Positions 4,267 to 38,966 of a stretch of DNA of 64,000 nt are shown here, one piece after another (the first letter of the stretch is position 1; each line of letters opens with the position of its first letter). The stretch is from IMG/VR virus record IMGVR_UViG_3300044633_003049, positions 147,785 to 211,784 of that record. One strand, given 5' to 3'. This stretch comes from a virus. The notes below the pieces were generated by a model. That model worked only from the letters and a program-made list of their open reading frames with translations, was not told the DNA's origin and did no database searches. The position numbers and the translations under genes were made by a program.

Positions 4267-5071
4267 AAAACTTTATCGGGGTATTTGTTATTCCTGATTT
4301 TGTCCCTCTACTAATTCCGTTATATTTGTAAACTTGGTATGAATAATCTCTTTTATCAATATCAACTTGGTAGTACATATCATTTTGTTCAGTAATAGTG
4401 TGACTCGTACTATAACTATCATTTGTAAAATCTAAAATTGTACCTTCTTTTGCGTTATAAAACTTTGCTGTCATAAAAAAGGTGTTACTTGTCGTTGTAC
4501 CACTTAAATTTGTTTCAGTTAAAACACTCTCATCTTGGAACCAAAAGAAATACATATTTTCTTTGTTACTATAATTTGATCCTCTAAAAACAGGTAAATG
4601 TATATAACCATTAAGTGAATTATAAAACATTTTTTCACCTAACGGTAACGACAAATTTTTTGCAAATATTAATTTTCTATTTTGTCTTGTTGGTGGTTCA
4701 CATGTTAATACATTACCTGAGACGGTTCCTGGTGTTTTAAAAAATTCCAATCTAAAAAAACTTTCGGTGGCCTGTTTCAACATACTTTCATTTTCTTGTG
4801 AACTTATACCTTGTGGGGTATAATCTTGAGTATATGTTCCATCACTTAAAAAATAAAAATAAAACCAAATATCGGTTTGCGCTACACCATCAGATAAATA
4901 TGGTTTATGGATATATCTAACCGTTTCGTAATTCTCAATTGGATTAATAATATCACTTAACACTTCGGTTTCAAATTCTTTCAAATTTTCTTCCCAACCG
5001 AGATTTGTTTGAAAATCAGTTTCAGTATTTAATAATATATTTAAATCAGTATCTTTTCTTAATATTTTCAT
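4253..5071 (-). CDS. Unrecognised virion protein, 272 aa
   Basis: A 272-residue soluble-looking protein with many aromatic residues (DIWFYFYFLSDG, MYFFWFQDES) and no membrane segment or recognised motif. It begins one base past the stop of the 596-aa gene and runs into the 290-aa gene, so the genes look co-translated. Aromatic beta-rich composition and the gene run suggest a baseplate or fibre-network component. The function is unknown. Confidence 0.7.
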   Translation of the reverse strand: MKILRKDTDLNILLNTETDFQTNLGWEENLKEFETEVLSDIINPIENYETVRYIHKPYLSDGVAQTDIWFYFYFLSDGTYTQDYTPQGISSQENESMLKQATESFFRLEFFKTPGTVSGNVLTCEPPTRQNRKLIFAKNLSLPLGEKMFYNSLNGYIHLPVFRGSNYSNKENMYFFWFQDESVLTETNLSGTTTSNTFFMTAKFYNAKEGTILDFTNDSYSTSHTITEQNDMYYQVDIDKRDYSYQVYKYNGISRGTKSGITNTPIKFYEKN

Positions 5072-5072
5072 G

Positions 5073-6863
5073 TTAACAATCTGAATTACTATTTTTATTA
5101 TTTATATCCATGAAACTCGTTATTCCATTTGATTTATTTTTATAATATCTTTCATTTCTTAAATAGAAATTAATGTTTGCTTTAACATAATGATTACCAT
5201 TCATAAAAGGAAAATCTGTTCCGAATCCATCGGAATCAACGTAACCGTGATCATATATATCTCTCCATCTCCAAACTTTATCATATGGGTCATACTTTGC
5301 ATTTTCAGGTAAATTGAAAATATCATTAGTATTTGCAGTTTCGGTATATGGTGATAATTCCCTTAATTTAATTCTATAATGTGGTTGATATATTAATCCT
5401 TCTAAATTTGTTGATGACGCATATGTTGAACCCGATGTTTGTCCGTGATTAAATATTGTTATTGGATTTGTGATTTTATGAAATGATTCACTTACAATTC
5501 TCTCAGTCATTTCTTTTGGGTTATATTCAACAAAGGCACCATTTAATATTGAACCTATTGGTAATGTTTGTCCACTTAAAAATGTAAATCCAGTGTATCC
5601 AGGTAAATTTGTGTTTCCAGTAAATGACGTACTCGTTAATCCAATTTCGTTTGATGTGGTTCCACTAAAATGTTCATCAATCCATGTATCGTGAAAATGA
5701 AATTTATATCCAACCTTTGGTGGATAATTAAAATATCCATTTCCATTTCTAAAAATTGCAGTAACAAAAACATTTGTTGGACTAAATCCTAAATTATTTG
5801 TTAATCCACTTAATTTTAATGGTTCCTTAAAATCATATAAAACAGATTCCATTCTATTTCTTTCAACTATAACATCATTTGTACCTACACTATTTTCAAA
5901 TAGTATTTTTTTCTCGTCTTCAAACACTGGACTTTCAAATCCAAGTGAATCCATTATATATCCACCTTCATTAGTTAATGTTTTATGTTTGTGAACATAA
6001 TATTTGGAAGTTGAAGCAACAATGTTATTAAAATCTTTACATCTTTTACCTAACATAATTGTACTGAATGTTGTTCCCGTTTTTATTTGTGACTTTATAA
6101 TATTAATGACATATTTTTTAGAATCAAACGTTTCATTACCAACTGAATTGATATAAAAGGTTCTACCTGTTAATGTTAATCCTGTTAATGTACTACCAGA
6201 TAGAACCACATGTTCACCTTCGCTCATTCCATGTTCAACTGGTGATGTTAATTCATAATATGTGGTATAATCCACGACTCTAAATGGAATACCATCTTTA
6301 GCGGTGAAACTAACTTTAGTTCCGCCTGTTAGCGTATAGTCCATTTTAAATTCACTATCACCACTATAAACATAACTTAAATATAAATTCCAGTTTTGGT
6401 ATGGTGCCGATATTGGTGTTACGGTTGTGTGTGCTGTTGATCCTGATTTTACTATGTTTGGTGTAAAGGTACCTAATGTATTTCCCGTTACCGGTAAATT
6501 AACTTCTCTATAAACGTCTCTTCTTAAAAATGCAAATTCGTCATATGGTAAATAACCATCAAAAACAGTACTATCTTGTATGTTACTACCGTCACCCGTT
6601 AAATATAATCTTTGTTTTAAATAAGAATAAGGTGTCGATCCAGAATATAAATTACGAAAAACCATTTTTAACTTTCCATATATCTTATAATTTATACTTT
6701 CATTACGTTCTTTATAATATTGTTCATCTATATCTAATATTATGTCCCTTTCACCTATTCGCATAAGTGTATCACTATTGTCAAGATTTAGTTTTAATTC
6801 TAATTCTTGGTCATCCGCCTTTGCGAATTTTTTACTTGGTAATATGATTTGTTTCTTTTCCAT
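5073..6863 (-). CDS. Baseplate-region structural protein, 596 aa (gp8 position)
   Basis: A 596-residue protein with an acidic and basic N-terminus (MEKKQIILPSKKFAKADDQE) and a long body of Ser/Thr/Gly-rich beta segments. Its start overlaps the stop of the 1126-aa gene by one base (TAATG), so translation is likely coupled. In T4 the order is 25-6-7-8, and this gene holds the gp8 place after gp25, gp6 and the gp7-position protein. T4 gp8 is much shorter (about 334 aa), and I cannot see direct similarity. Structural role likely; the gp8 equivalence is positional inference. Confidence 0.65.
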   Translation of the reverse strand: MEKKQIILPSKKFAKADDQELELKLNLDNSDTLMRIGERDIILDIDEQYYKERNESINYKIYGKLKMVFRNLYSGSTPYSYLKQRLYLTGDGSNIQDSTVFDGYLPYDEFAFLRRDVYREVNLPVTGNTLGTFTPNIVKSGSTAHTTVTPISAPYQNWNLYLSYVYSGDSEFKMDYTLTGGTKVSFTAKDGIPFRVVDYTTYYELTSPVEHGMSEGEHVVLSGSTLTGLTLTGRTFYINSVGNETFDSKKYVINIIKSQIKTGTTFSTIMLGKRCKDFNNIVASTSKYYVHKHKTLTNEGGYIMDSLGFESPVFEDEKKILFENSVGTNDVIVERNRMESVLYDFKEPLKLSGLTNNLGFSPTNVFVTAIFRNGNGYFNYPPKVGYKFHFHDTWIDEHFSGTTSNEIGLTSTSFTGNTNLPGYTGFTFLSGQTLPIGSILNGAFVEYNPKEMTERIVSESFHKITNPITIFNHGQTSGSTYASSTNLEGLIYQPHYRIKLRELSPYTETANTNDIFNLPENAKYDPYDKVWRWRDIYDHGYVDSDGFGTDFPFMNGNHYVKANINFYLRNERYYKNKSNGITSFMDINNKNSNSDC

Positions 6864-32396: not shown

Positions 32397-34325
32397 CTAT
32401 TTTTTATTGTTAGCGGCTAATTTTGGTGTGGTATAATCACTTTTATGTCCCCATTCAGTTATTGCTGTTGGGTTTTTCATAACTTCTTTATTAATACCGT
32501 CCATAATTGATGAAGTAATTAAATTATGATTTACTGTTAATGTTGAATTTTGCGGTGTGTTATTATCGCTAACTCCATTTTTCACTTTTTCAAATTCTTT
32601 ATTAAGTGATTCTGTTATTTTTTTAACCGTTGCATTTTGTGCTCCATATATTTCAGTTAAAACATTTAATTTTGTTATTTGTTCCTGAACTTGTGGTAAG
32701 TTTTTAAAATCTTCGACGGCCGCCGCTATTCTTTCTTTATTATTATCATTAAATGGTCCCCTTTTTTCTTTTAAAAAAGTATCAGTATAATTTGATACAT
32801 TTCTCATCGCATCAGCACCAAGTTCATTTAAATTTAAACCTTTTTTTCCTGCCCCCATACTTACAGCCTCTATTTTTTGTAATGCCCACATTGATGCCAA
32901 ATCTCTTTCTATGTTTTTAACTGATGTGACTTGGTCTCTAGCTATGTCTGCTGGACTCATGGCTTCAAATGCTTTTCTATTATCTTGTAATACTTCAATT
33001 TGTTTTTGTGTCAAATCAGATAGCGCTATTTTACTTTTACCTTCAAAATCTTGTGATAATGTTTTAGGTATTTCAATTACCATTTTACCATTATCCATTT
33101 TAGATAAATTGGTAATAAATTCTTTATCTTCTTCTTTGATACTAAAACCTTTAGCCATTAAATCATTTGATGCTGCTAATCTTTCTTGTGACGCAACGGC
33201 ACCTCTAGTTAAACTTTCATATGAAATACCTAATTCATCCGCCATCGCCTTCGCTCTTCTAATATTAATACCTGTAATTTCAAATCTACCTTGTTTGTCA
33301 TTATATGTTGCCAATGAACCTGAAGCCTTTATAATTGCATCTTGTAATCCCTCAACATTGTTAGTGGCCATGTACATCAACTTAAGAGGGTCATTAAAAT
33401 CGCCAATTGCACCACCTAAAACTTGTAAATTAGCGGTTAATGCTATTGCCTTTTCAGGGTCCATTACTTTATCTGCAATGATGAAGGCATCACCAATATC
33501 CATTCTAAATTCTTTTGCCCTTCTTGACATAGTTGCTAAACCTTCAATACCCTCTTTAAATCCGTATTTATTTAACTTCTCAATATTTTCTCTAATATCC
33601 GTAATTGTTTTTTTAGCTACAAGTCCTAACGATAATGAATTCTTACCAGCCTGATTAATTGAATCAATAGCATTACCAGCACCAATTCCAACCTTTTCAA
33701 ATTCGGTAAACGACTTACCCATATCACCTAAACTACCCACAAATGCCCTTGCCGAATCAAAACTTTTTGTTAATGTTTCTGAAGAAATTAAATTAAATCT
33801 ACCTGATGACTCCATCATGTTGGTTACCAATTCAGTTACTTGTGCAATACCATATCCCATTCTAATCGCGGCGGGATACGAATCTATCATTTCTTTTCTT
33901 AAACCTTGAGATAATTCACCACTAATACCAATTTTTTCGTTTACTTCAGTTCTAACTTGATTTTCTAATTGTAGTTGTTGAAATATTTCATTACCAGCAA
34001 CTTTTAAATCTTTAAATAAATTTGCACCGTTCTTACTTAATGCACTTAATATGTCACCTGGAGTGGTAACCTCATCACCATATGTGTTAGATTGTGTAAC
34101 ATTAAACGCTGCAGTAAAACTAGTTGCTTTTTGTGCGTACGCAGTTTGAGATGAACCACTTGAAGTATTTTTACTATTTCCTGTAGATGTTGCGGAAACT
34201 CCTGCTAACGCAGTTAATACTTGTGGTTGAGATGCCCCTTCTTTATCTAAATATTTTGATAACCCTTTAGGGTCATTTTTATATTTATTTACCGCATCCT
34301 TTACTTGTTGATCTGTTAGTGCCAT
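32397..34325 (-). CDS. 29: Tail tape measure protein (gp29-like)
   Basis: A 642-residue, predominantly helical Ala/Lys/Asp/Glu-rich protein (T4 gp29: 590). A Ser/Thr-rich linker lies at ~45-62, and helical arrays follow such as LTKSFDSARAFVGSLGDMGK and FEKVGIGAGNAIDSINQAGK. It sits immediately after the gp26-like assembly factor and its out-of-frame partner, the usual place for a tape measure. It sets the tail length and is probably ejected during infection. The identity comes from composition, length and position, since tape measures diverge fast. Confidence 0.75.
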   Translation of the reverse strand: MALTDQQVKDAVNKYKNDPKGLSKYLDKEGASQPQVLTALAGVSATSTGNSKNTSSGSSQTAYAQKATSFTAAFNVTQSNTYGDEVTTPGDILSALSKNGANLFKDLKVAGNEIFQQLQLENQVRTEVNEKIGISGELSQGLRKEMIDSYPAAIRMGYGIAQVTELVTNMMESSGRFNLISSETLTKSFDSARAFVGSLGDMGKSFTEFEKVGIGAGNAIDSINQAGKNSLSLGLVAKKTITDIRENIEKLNKYGFKEGIEGLATMSRRAKEFRMDIGDAFIIADKVMDPEKAIALTANLQVLGGAIGDFNDPLKLMYMATNNVEGLQDAIIKASGSLATYNDKQGRFEITGINIRRAKAMADELGISYESLTRGAVASQERLAASNDLMAKGFSIKEEDKEFITNLSKMDNGKMVIEIPKTLSQDFEGKSKIALSDLTQKQIEVLQDNRKAFEAMSPADIARDQVTSVKNIERDLASMWALQKIEAVSMGAGKKGLNLNELGADAMRNVSNYTDTFLKEKRGPFNDNNKERIAAAVEDFKNLPQVQEQITKLNVLTEIYGAQNATVKKITESLNKEFEKVKNGVSDNNTPQNSTLTVNHNLITSSIMDGINKEVMKNPTAITEWGHKSDYTTPKLAANNKK

Positions 34326-34340: not shown

Positions 34341-34508
34341 TTAATTAGGATTTTCTAACTCTAATAAGAAGTTAATATAATATCTTCTAACATATATGGG
34401 CATAGATAGGATATCGCCATATGTAAACCCCTTTTTAATGAGGTATAAAATCTCGTCTAATTGATTTTTTTTATATTCCGTAGAAAGGTCGAAAAAACTC
34501 AACCCCAA
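34341..34508 (-). CDS. Small tail-assembly ORF in +1 frame after gp26 (frameshift extension or coupled gene)
   Basis: This ORF has no ATG and overlaps the end of the gp26-like gene in the +1 frame. From the TTG at 34508 it is 55 codons; the frame is open from 34526, with other TTGs at 34520, 34514 and 34502. The product reads FDLSTEYKKNQLDEILYLIK, then KGFTYGDILSMPIYVRRYYI. From memory this is the pattern (..I..L...GFTY.D+..MP.Y.R+.. N.L) of a short protein encoded between gp26 and downstream tail genes in many T4-like phages. It is made either by +1 frameshifting (candidate TTT TTT CGA at 34489-34497) or by restart at a TTG. The coding nature is well supported; the mechanism is open. Confidence 0.65.
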   Translation of the reverse strand: MGLSFFDLSTEYKKNQLDEILYLIKKGFTYGDILSMPIYVRRYYINFLLELENPN

Positions 34509-35220
34509 ATCCAATGTCAATTTGGACTATATCTCCTGATGGGGTGGTTACTGTTTGGGTTAAATCTAACCCTGGTTTATTATCTTTGATAAATTTTCTA
34601 AATTCTTGTGAATCTTTAATCGGCATATTCTCAACAAAGTTCCTAATGTTCATTTGGTCTTTGTTACCTGCAACCGTTTTAATCATAAATTCAAGTTGTT
34701 TTGTAACAATTGGAGCCACCCCATTACCATTCCAACTTTCCTTTATATCTTCAATTTCCTTTTCTTGTTTTTGAGTTAAAAACTTGAAGGTGATATCTAT
34801 TTTACTCTTTTCCATGTAATATTGATATTCACCATTACTATCTTCTTTCAAGTTAAAATCCTTCATCTTTAATTCAGATAAATCAATTTCAACCGTAAAT
34901 TGTTCTTGTGTCTTTGAGTCAGTTGTGGTTAAGTTATATATTGAACCAAAACCTGTATTTCTTAAAAATATAAGAATGGCTTGTCTATCTTCATCCACAA
35001 TATCATCTACTTGTAAATCTTTATCCAAAACCTTTCTTCTTAAAAGTTCATTGATAACACCGTTATTCGCAATTAAGTTTGGAGCAGAAAGAATATTTTC
35101 ATCTGCAGCAGTTAAATAAGCAACTCTTACTGATTTCTTTTTACTTGGGTAATGTATACCTCTACTTGGTAGTTCTACTACGTCGTATGCAATTGTTGGG
35201 TCTATTTTATATTCGTCCAT
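34471..35220 (-). CDS. 26: Baseplate hub assembly / tape-measure chaperone gp26-like
   Basis: A 249-residue protein with the N-terminal family signature VVELPSRGIHYPSKK, then VRVAYLTAADENIL, characteristic of T4-type baseplate protein gp26 (208 aa in T4). It acts in hub assembly and, by analogy with lambda G, in handling the tape measure. It ends at TAA 34471-34473, beyond which the +1 frame stays open for another 43 codons. No late box was seen directly before its start, and the tube terminator lies just upstream. Confidence 0.82.
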   Translation of the reverse strand: MDEYKIDPTIAYDVVELPSRGIHYPSKKKSVRVAYLTAADENILSAPNLIANNGVINELLRRKVLDKDLQVDDIVDEDRQAILIFLRNTGFGSIYNLTTTDSKTQEQFTVEIDLSELKMKDFNLKEDSNGEYQYYMEKSKIDITFKFLTQKQEKEIEDIKESWNGNGVAPIVTKQLEFMIKTVAGNKDQMNIRNFVENMPIKDSQEFRKFIKDNKPGLDLTQTVTTPSGDIVQIDIGFGVEFFRPFYGI

Positions 35221-35321: not shown

Positions 35322-35810
35322 TTAATAAACTTGGATACAACGGTCCATTCTTAATGAAGCGTCAATTGTTGCCAAATCATCTCTTGAGTAATCTAAATCA
35401 CCGAAGTTCAAACTTGTTAAGAAACAACCTTGTAAAATCCATTTTTCAACCACAACTCCCGTTGGGTCTAACATCTCCAATTCAATGTCTTTCTTATAAC
35501 CCGCAGCATATCCCATACGACCTGTAACTGACTCCGCATGTAAACGGAACCATTCCATAAGTGCTTGAGAAGCAGAAGGACCAATTGGGTCTTTAAATTG
35601 AACTTTAATCTCTTCCCACTCAAATTGACCAGCAACATAAGTTTTTGTGTTCAAGAAAGGAATCTCAACTGATTTAATTTTAGCAGATGGTCTCGCTGTG
35701 GAGAATACATACCACTCATTTATTCCTAAAGATGATGGAAATCTTAGGATAAATCTATTTTTTCTTTTCGGTTCGTAAGGAACCGGCATTTTCATTAATA
35801 AATCTGCCAT
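35322..35810 (-). CDS. 19: Tail tube protein gp19
   Basis: A 162-residue homologue of T4 gp19 (163 aa), the hexameric ring that stacks into the inner tube. It begins MADLLMKMPVPYEPKRKNRF. The body holds the family pattern IKSVEIPFLNTKTYVAGQFE, WEEIKVQFKDPIGPSAS and LQGCFLTSLNFGDLDYSRD. It forms a single-gene transcript: a 324-base leader with late boxes upstream and a strong terminator downstream, consistent with very high late expression. Confidence 0.93.
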   Translation of the reverse strand: MADLLMKMPVPYEPKRKNRFILRFPSSLGINEWYVFSTARPSAKIKSVEIPFLNTKTYVAGQFEWEEIKVQFKDPIGPSASQALMEWFRLHAESVTGRMGYAAGYKKDIELEMLDPTGVVVEKWILQGCFLTSLNFGDLDYSRDDLATIDASLRMDRCIQVY

Positions 35811-36134: not shown

Positions 36135-38966
36135 TTAGATATTGTCAAATGAAGCTCCTGTTGGAGTGATTACAAATTCCAAATCAATGAATTCTAAAGA
36201 ACGAGTTGGTTTGATATAAATCTTACCTCTTAATGTGTTAGCATCGATGTCCTCTGGATCATTAGATACACTCACACGGAAGTCATACAAACCTCTTTCT
36301 TTCTTAATTGATTCCAAGATAGGATTTACTAATCTTAAGAACTCTTGTCTTACTTGGTCGTCATTTTGTTCAAACAATAACCTTACAGCTACCGCAGAAA
36401 TCAATTTTCTAGCTCTTAATAATAATCTTCTTACGTTGATTCTATCTAAAGCCGACTCTCTAACTTGTAACGTTTTATTACCCCATATAATGGTACCTGT
36501 ATCAGAGAATGTTGCAATTGGGTTGATTCTCGCCTTATATAACTCATCTCTTTCGTCAAGAGTAAGTTTCTTTTGTGCTTTGATTGCGTTTACCAAACCT
36601 CTACTGTAACCCGCAACTGCGAACCAAGGATAAGATACGTTGTCAGTTAAGGCGATGTTCTTAACAACCTCACCTGTTGGTGGAATATATAATTGAGTTG
36701 CATTATCCGTGTCTCTTACTTGAATCCAAGGCCAATATGTGGCTGAATAGTTTGAGTCAACTGCGATACCGTCTAAATCGTCAATAACGTTAGATGCAAT
36801 AGTTTCATTTGGTGCTCCAATTATATAAATTGAATCCGCTCTATCAGTTTCAATCATGTCAATTGCTTGAGTTGTTAATGAACTATGGTCGTAGAAGTTA
36901 ATACCTGGAGTTGCAAATACGTTAATATCTACGGCCTCAGGATTTGCATATGTTTGAATACCTTCTAAATAAGCATAATAATCAGAGTTTCCATTTGCAG
37001 TGTCAAACAATCCACCATTTGTTGTAAGACCTGAAATATATGTTAATTTTCCAAATATATAACCGTCACCATATGTTCTTACTTGTCTGTAAATGTCCCA
37101 ACCATCAAAACCACCACATACGGCAAATGTAAATTTACGGAAGTTAATACTATCTAATTTACCTTTATCGGTACCTTCTAAATCATAAGGTGTTGTTTGG
37201 TACATTAATCCTGAAACTGTATTTCCAGTTATTGTAGCTGCGTTTATAGATAAGTGAAATCCGTCTGTTGATCCTTTTTGAGTTGCTTCTGTTGAACATT
37301 TATATTTAAACAAATCGGAGTCAAAATTAAAATTACCATCAGAAGATAAACCTAAAGATGTTTTTCTAAATTTATCACCATTACTTGTTATGTCATCATA
37401 AATTGTTTCACCAGAATCAAAAAATTCAGTTTTATAAAGAACACTACCTAATGTTGTTGAACCTGATAAAGTTGCATTTGTAAAACCTTTAAATCCTGCA
37501 GGAAATGCATTTGATGGTGCGTTAGAGTCCATAAGTAACATAATGTATTTAGAATTCAAAGTATACTCACCAGTTGATGTACCTATTTTTCTAGCAACAT
37601 ATCCTGCAACGTCTGGATTCATTGAACATCTTGAGAATTTTTCCAAAACAACCATGTTTTCATCGGAATCATTAAAATCTCTAACTAATATATCAAATTC
37701 ACCTGTTTCAATATTAATATTTTGAATTGTGATTTTAATTTCCTGATTTGCGGCGTTTCCGTCAGAAATTGTAATAACATCAAATAAATCATCAACTTTA
37801 CCACCACGAACTTCAGAAACCACAGTAGGTGACTTTGGTGTGTCCCAAGTATTTGAGAAGTTGTCACCTTCCGCATTATATACTTCAGTTAGGCTTAAAC
37901 CTCTAATTAAACCTTGATTATATAAGTTTTTTGTTAAGTTCGGATAAACTTCGTGAACATATAATGGAACATCGTTACCATCTTTATCATATGGACTTGT
38001 TCCTAAAACTTTAGTTATGTATTTTGTTGACGTTGAATCTAAACTACACGTGAAAACCTTAGCACCTGTAGTTCCTGTAACATAAATATTAAATTCCGAT
38101 AATGGGTCACTTGTTAACGTTGCCCCACTAATAGTAAAAGATGTGTTTCCAGTAACTTGAAAATTTAAAGATTCTTGTGAATAATTTCCTCTTGATCTTA
38201 ATGCCGCCATAACAATTTCCTTATCATATACTGAAGTTGCGGTATATGTATATTTTGTTGTGGTAAAATTCATTGAACTAGCAGCATAAACAAATAAGTA
38301 ACTATACACTTCGGTACCGTTAGTATTGGTAAACACGTTATTCCAATTTTTTATAGTTGCGGTTCCAATAGGACTTGTTTTTTGATTTCCCGTTAAACCT
38401 GATGTTGCTGATGATGGAACATTTCCAATTGTAAACCAATCACCTGTAGATAAACCGCTACCGTAATTAGTGACTATATAATTTGTAACCGTTGTACCAG
38501 TTGAATTGGTTTTACCAGATAATGAACTATAAAAAGTACTATATGTTGGGTTTACAATGTCCTCAGCTGTTGGTGTTGTAATACCTGTAGTTGAACTTGG
38601 AGTTTGTGTTAAGTCAACAGATATACCACCTATTGTTTTAATGCCGAATGTTTTTCCTGCTTTGTAACCTGTCTTACCTAATACTCTTGTTACAAATAAT
38701 TGATTTGACTCTTGTAAATAAGATTTAGCGACATAACCTAATTCATATTTTGGATTGCCAGCACCATCTTTTTCAGGTGAGGTTGGTCCGAAGTATGTTT
38801 TAAATTCGTCAAAATTTGAAATTAATATTGGTTCAAAAGCGGGACCTTTTAAGGTTTCACCCACTAATCCCAATGTTGTAACACCTATACTTTGTGCTAC
38901 GAATGTTAGATCTTTCTCTGATGTATAAACACCAGGAGACACGAAAACTCTGTTATTACTTGCCAT
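36135..38966 (-). CDS. 18: Tail sheath protein gp18
   Basis: A 943-residue contractile sheath subunit, much longer than T4 gp18 (659). The N-terminus VFVSPGVYTSEKDLTFVAQS, then GVTTLGLVGETLKGPAFEP, and TYFGPTSPE are classic. The conserved C-terminal core includes VNAIKAQKKLTLDERDELY, NPIATFSDTGTIIWGNKTLQ and the tube-binding end LRGKIYIKPTRSLEFIDLEF. The middle (~110-560) is Thr/Ser/Gly-rich and appears to hold extra surface domains compared with T4. It has its own promoter region and terminator, as expected for the most abundant tail protein. Confidence 0.93.
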   Translation of the reverse strand: MASNNRVFVSPGVYTSEKDLTFVAQSIGVTTLGLVGETLKGPAFEPILISNFDEFKTYFGPTSPEKDGAGNPKYELGYVAKSYLQESNQLFVTRVLGKTGYKAGKTFGIKTIGGISVDLTQTPSSTTGITTPTAEDIVNPTYSTFYSSLSGKTNSTGTTVTNYIVTNYGSGLSTGDWFTIGNVPSSATSGLTGNQKTSPIGTATIKNWNNVFTNTNGTEVYSYLFVYAASSMNFTTTKYTYTATSVYDKEIVMAALRSRGNYSQESLNFQVTGNTSFTISGATLTSDPLSEFNIYVTGTTGAKVFTCSLDSTSTKYITKVLGTSPYDKDGNDVPLYVHEVYPNLTKNLYNQGLIRGLSLTEVYNAEGDNFSNTWDTPKSPTVVSEVRGGKVDDLFDVITISDGNAANQEIKITIQNINIETGEFDILVRDFNDSDENMVVLEKFSRCSMNPDVAGYVARKIGTSTGEYTLNSKYIMLLMDSNAPSNAFPAGFKGFTNATLSGSTTLGSVLYKTEFFDSGETIYDDITSNGDKFRKTSLGLSSDGNFNFDSDLFKYKCSTEATQKGSTDGFHLSINAATITGNTVSGLMYQTTPYDLEGTDKGKLDSINFRKFTFAVCGGFDGWDIYRQVRTYGDGYIFGKLTYISGLTTNGGLFDTANGNSDYYAYLEGIQTYANPEAVDINVFATPGINFYDHSSLTTQAIDMIETDRADSIYIIGAPNETIASNVIDDLDGIAVDSNYSATYWPWIQVRDTDNATQLYIPPTGEVVKNIALTDNVSYPWFAVAGYSRGLVNAIKAQKKLTLDERDELYKARINPIATFSDTGTIIWGNKTLQVRESALDRINVRRLLLRARKLISAVAVRLLFEQNDDQVRQEFLRLVNPILESIKKERGLYDFRVSVSNDPEDIDANTLRGKIYIKPTRSLEFIDLEFVITPTGASFDNI

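Follow-up and report, generated by a model that had tools for sequence, protein, structure and literature searches.

A probable +1 programmed frameshift at the 3' end of a gp26-like gene, predicted to yield short and long tail assembly chaperones

The window analyzed here is a stretch of 64,000 nucleotides corresponding to positions 147785 to 211784 of a viral record of 211,784 bases. On its minus strand, to which all the coordinates below refer, a tail sheath gene (36135 to 38966; Phage_sheath_1, E 1.4e-11), a tail tube gene (35322 to 35810; phrog_4542, E 4.2e-26), a gp26-like gene (34471 to 35220), a short extension open reading frame (ORF), and a large ORF of 642 amino acids (aa; 32397 to 34325) follow one another in that order. 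The gp26-like protein (249 aa) scored 38.6 bits against PF12322 (T4_baseplate), above the curated cut-off of 24.5, which places it in the T4 gp26/baseplate hub family, and it matched phrog_150 at E 6.6e-12. The 642-aa ORF starts with ATG and gave no significant match in family profile searches; we call it a putative tape measure gene from its position, tape measure being the annotation of the gene in the same place in phages immuto and SP-15. These two phages share the order sheath, tube, gp26-like gene, and tape measure, and its first three members recur in Mel-JY01, while in RM378 the order differs, with the tube gene on the other strand. The gp26-like gene thus lies between the tube and tape measure positions (the latter defined by place only in the window), as in a pair of tail assembly chaperones (TACs). 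The sheath protein is 943 aa long, and its matches to the sheath family span residues 658 to 934 only, leaving a large N-terminal part unexplained. A tRNA search of the 64-kb window found none.

The gp26-like frame (frame 0) ends with a TAA at 34473 to 34471, across which the +1 frame stays open. As the earlier note described, the +1 ORF runs from 34520 to 34341 (59 codons, with a TTG start) and has no ATG before the internal methionine of ...SMPIY, initiation at which would lose most of the conserved domain. The site TTT TTT CGA also lies where that note had placed it (34497 to 34489). It is adjoined on its upstream side by GGGGTTGAG (34506 to 34498), an internal stretch resembling a Shine-Dalgarno (SD) sequence in its anti-SD pairing profile, and is overlapped by the +1-frame extension proper (34490 to 34341; 49 codons and a stop).

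We compared this junction across 287 sequences, drawn from four scans of viral contigs, annotated phage records, and the window itself; the set is a sample, consisting of the matches listed by the scans, three of which contributed their best 80 each. A gp26 profile located the gene in 285 of the 287 (it missed L043 and T4), 268 sequences reached the junction, and 178 junctions were distinct over 300 nt. With an extension profile (E<0.01) seeded on 25 of the junctions, which match by construction, the same domain turned up in 174 of the 178 junctions, always in the +1 frame, which is far beyond chance; the peptide that looked conserved to the earlier note is indeed conserved. The consensus is FF.LS..Y...E...GF.Y.D...MP..RR. 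Among the four exceptions, RM378 (L048) gave no match to the extension profile, and SP-15 (L049) and Streptococcus phage GXN1 (L050) gave +1 matches at E 4.3 and 6.7, respectively; by eye, the +1 frame is open in all three, from TTT TTT TGG, TTT TTT CAC, and TTC TTT CGT in that order. The fourth, a 595-kb uncultured phage (L051), has the extension domain in the -1 frame with a TAATG restart near 4796, which may be a third way of arranging this junction, next to +1 and -1 shifting. On contigs from bacterial genomes, the domain was in the +1 frame at seven of nine loci (a tenth, L299, is truncated and was left out of the count), and L290 and L295 had no such domain.

Past the frame-0 stop, in 155 pairs of equal length and 75 to 97% identity, the mean pN was 0.101 and the mean pS 0.478 (pN/pS 0.21), and pN was lower than pS in all 155 pairs, which are not independent of one another; the extension therefore evolves as a protein. 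It is predicted to form three helices (pLDDT 92, from 49 sequences). A search with this fold gave nothing significant, a gp51 homologue of phage ZZ1 appearing at E 6.2 only; among PDB folds, five chains could be aligned and none reached a Z of at least 2, and a PDB sequence search returned chance-level matches only. The phrog_634 profile (baseplate hub assembly catalyst) matched 6 of 49 extensions, with a best E of 4.2e-5, the extension of the window not being among them, and hhalign placed the extension weakly (E 0.08) on residues 218 to 244 of T4 gp51, which we take to be the TAC-NC of T4. T4 gp28 was also considered as a counterpart of the extension and rejected, having given no match. The model of the N protein (pLDDT 87, from 29 sequences) ranked the HK97 chaperone 2ob9_B first (Z 4.8, rmsd 4.3, 88 residues aligned; next Z 2.2; E 1.5 by Foldseek alone), a resemblance between a model and a structure that is suggestive only. 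Compared by hhalign with the single T4 gp26 sequence, the N protein gave no significant match, although the Pfam and phrog profiles match.

DUF6760 matched 14 of the 49 extensions (best E 3.8e-5). It gave no match in two genomes of the bacterial loci and three in 395 genomes of the phylum Bacteroidota, with E-values that relate to a handful of ORFs. In two of the three (L381 and L382, from the phylum of the L291 genome), the N part and the extension lie in one ORF, a single open frame (859 to 1623) that follows a tube-like ORF, while the third (L380) is without an N part. Such one-frame ORFs would support the fusion as a working product, the scores being weak; the tail-like clusters that contain them may be injection systems or prophages.

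At the point where the frames switch, the P-site codon is TTT, rarely CTT, and every A-site codon begins with a pyrimidine: CGN in 106, TGG in 66, TAC in 2, and CTC, CAC, and CTA in 1 each of 177 junctions (L051 left out, L048 to L050 included; CTA is that of L046 if the slip occurs at its TTT), these and the codon counts below being counts of related sequences, not of independent events. The window and the 106 CGN junctions thus carry a UUU_CGN motif. Within this class, the P site is TTT in 106 of 106, compared with 859 of 1088 Phe codons elsewhere in the same genes, and the codon preceding it is TTT in 101. Arginine at the A site is invariably encoded by CGN, which accounts for only 78 of the 850 Arg codons elsewhere, the other 772 being AGA or AGG; CGC and CGG together make up 49 of 106 at the site and 4 of 850 elsewhere. 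By comparison, 89 of the 106 genes use AGA or AGG for the invariant Arg in column 96, and in window ORFs of at least 200 aa, Arg is encoded 570 times, by CGA in 15 cases and never by CGC or CGG. A CGN codon in the A site fits a forward slip, since the +1 register then offers TTC to the tRNA, while AGA would yield TTA, which tRNA-Phe does not read. Among 58 degenerate codons that are conserved in the gene, two that encode Phe in the shift region showed zero synonymous entropy, and the last eight codons contain five of the seven lowest values; double coding explains part of this. In five relatives (L068, where the sequence is TTC TTT CGC, and L127, L129, L261, and L050), the site reads TTC TTT CGN, which argues for the second TTT as the slip codon; the first would give a spacing to the SD-like element like that of prfB. 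The comparison of junctions thus favors the reading proposed in the earlier note, in which tRNA-Phe moves one base forward from TTT onto TTC ahead of a CGN codon.

The same note had offered TTG restarts as the alternative and a comparison of related phages as a check. If the extension were a separate small gene, with translation beginning within the gp26-like gene at a TTG or another start codon, the several in-frame TTG codons upstream in the window would be candidates for that start. Small ORFs are indeed annotated separately there in immuto, Mel-JY01, and SP-15, and in 13 of the 106 junctions of the CGN class the fourth codon of the extension, shortly ahead of the stop, is an ATG from which a shorter product could begin. 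Across the 174 junctions, however, the distance from the opening of the +1 frame to the frame-0 stop ranges from 20 to 137 nt; in 34 of them the +1 frame is blocked by a stop codon at the slip site itself and becomes open just 20 or 26 nt ahead of the frame-0 stop. From this opening to 60 nt past the frame-0 stop, 104 of the 174 lack an ATG and 25 lack any of ATG, GTG, and TTG; no start is therefore conserved, including the TTG at 34520, and the overlapping second frame has the character of a conserved C-terminal domain without a start of its own. Moreover, codon conservation peaks at the slip site rather than at a start, and the conserved FF.LS motif precedes any start that could be shared. 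We consider a separate gene very unlikely on these grounds, and the TTG alternative fails with it. The hypothetical proteins annotated in immuto (5827 to 5937), Mel-JY01 (5776 to 6012), and SP-15 (4812 to 4931) overlap the +1 extension or are fragments of it, and probably do not represent genes of their own.

A -2 frameshift, or slippage of RNA polymerase on the T run, would lead to the same frame as a +1 shift, and most relatives do have a run of six or seven T's. Such a run is short for polymerase slippage, and in the five relatives with TTC TTT CGN both the run and the -2 re-pairing are broken; two further relatives have TTT CTT TGG. Since this reading also leaves the conserved CGN without an explanation, we rate it as slightly less probable even than a separate gene. 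That the junction is the degenerate remnant of a former in-frame fusion, or a sequencing error, is scarcely credible: L381 and L382 may carry in-frame fusions, but the distinct junctions compared number 178 and come from many different samples as well as from cultured phages, and the region past the stop is under the purifying selection described above.

In the CGN class, GGG encodes the Gly that stands four codons ahead of the P site in 100 of 106 junctions, versus 93 of 1055 Gly codons elsewhere, and in 74 of 86 the best anti-SD pairing ends 5 to 6 nt short of the P-site codon. In the TGG class the pairing is weaker and more scattered (26 of 61 at 5 to 6 nt). According to the introduction of PMC6321510, an SD sequence 8 to 11 nt upstream stimulates -1 shifting, and one adjacent to the E site promotes +1. 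The GGGG-rich stretch upstream of the site probably helps the forward slip. It counts against the frameshift reading that this stretch lies farther from the slip codon than the 3 nt of prfB and is weaker in the TGG class, and that in Flavobacterium johnsoniae, a possible kind of host, SD sequences are rarely used and the shift at prfB is poor, as stated in PMC12421855. Downstream RNA structure was dropped as a candidate stimulator, since none stood out (mean z of -0.08 and -0.77, 40 sequences each).

Tail assembly helpers made in two lengths are well known in phages. Taken together, the sequence comparisons make it very probable that a +1 programmed frameshift at the end of the gp26-like gene yields a short and a long TAC (TAC-N and TAC-NC). 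Most ribosomes would end at the TAA and release TAC-N of 249 aa. In a minority, the tRNA-Phe on the second TTT (34494 to 34492) would sit in the P site while the scarce CGA (34491 to 34489) waits in the A site, and would move one base forward to pair with TTC (34493 to 34491), after which reading would continue in the +1 frame with GAC CTT TCT. The resulting TAC-NC would have 292 aa (243 plus 49), with a junction peptide reading ...GVEFFDLSTEYK..., and its extra three-helix domain would very likely contact the tape measure or the tube protein, as in lambda GT.

The parallel with lambda G/GT drawn in the earlier note holds for the position of the gene and the design of the products and breaks down for direction: lambda shifts -1, whereas the window, like 174 of the 178 junctions overall, encodes the domain in the +1 frame. 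As with lambda G/GT, a single SPP1 gene located upstream of the tape measure gives a chaperone in a short and an extended form (17.5/17.5*), with a putative -1 shift at UUUUUUC (PMC6316719). A match to the site itself comes from eukaryotic viruses, influenza virus (PA-X) and the plant amalgaviruses, whose +1 motif UUU_CGN (PMC5052127) has in common with the window group the P-site UUU, an A-site CGN with all four CGN codons represented, and the direction; the window group differs in that its site lies in a phage gene, also occurs in a TGG form, and is accompanied by an SD-like element. The prfB (RF2) +1 site shares a pyrimidine slip codon, of which TTT variants exist, and an upstream SD sequence, as given in PMC12421855. 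There, the SD lies 3 nt from the slip codon, whereas here the spacing is 5 to 6 nt and the A site holds a sense codon, CGN or TGG, instead of a stop.

For T4-like phages, a 2022 study reportedly found that frameshifting is kept in several groups and that T4 has separate genes 26 and 51. We take the gp26-like gene of the window to be of the same gp26 family as the TAC genes of that study, and the idea of TAC-N and TAC-NC is common to both. Contrary to the earlier note, which knew of no such frameshift described for T4-like gp26, TAC frameshifting in these phages is already in print, going by the title of that study (Vladimirov, Gautam, and Davidson 2022, in the reference list of PMC10885494). 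A passage of PMC12846349 cites the T4-like TAC signal as a polyT -1 signal, also found in Vandenendeviridae chaperone genes, in contrast to the +1 shift at TTT-CGN or TTT-TGG in the window group. In the open-access literature, a scope outside which the text of Vladimirov et al. lies, we recognized no +1 chaperone shift in T4-like phages, and direction and site look to be what is new here.

The gp26/'gp51' junction of cyanophages provides the -1 counterpart. In 80 related contigs, the switch was -1 in 60 of 60 distinct junctions, including that of S-PM2, with TTT TTC at the switch, and the best anti-SD pairing lay 8 to 10 nt before the P-site codon in 57 of 58. The cyanophage N protein is related to that of the window (hhalign E 8e-4, probability 25), and so is the extension (E 1.5e-4, probability 51), which occupies the same place and has FF at the junction. 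In S-PM2, the ORF at 1190 to 1363, annotated as 'gp51, baseplate hub assembly catalyst', is the related extension in the -1 frame; it has 57 aa and T4 gp51 has 249, a difference that the common name hides. The direction of frameshifting has likely switched in the evolution of one chaperone family, the cyanophages shifting -1 at T_TTT_TTC with an SD-like element 8 to 10 nt upstream and the window group +1 at TTT-CGN or TTT-TGG with one at 5 to 6 nt.

The +1 group is large and mostly uncultured; its cultured members grow on Flavobacterium and Microcystis, and others are found in Bacteroidota metagenome-assembled genomes. The comparison identifies a probable chaperone domain that the public genomes of immuto, Mel-JY01, and SP-15 annotate as separate small ORFs. 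The putative sense-codon +1 site is conserved across many phages, and its natural variation in the P site, the A site, and the distance to the SD-like element can help to show what determines the direction of frameshifting in bacteria. If the direction did switch, the group would offer many naturally occurring phage sites for +1 shifting at a sense codon, built on the motif known from influenza PA-X.
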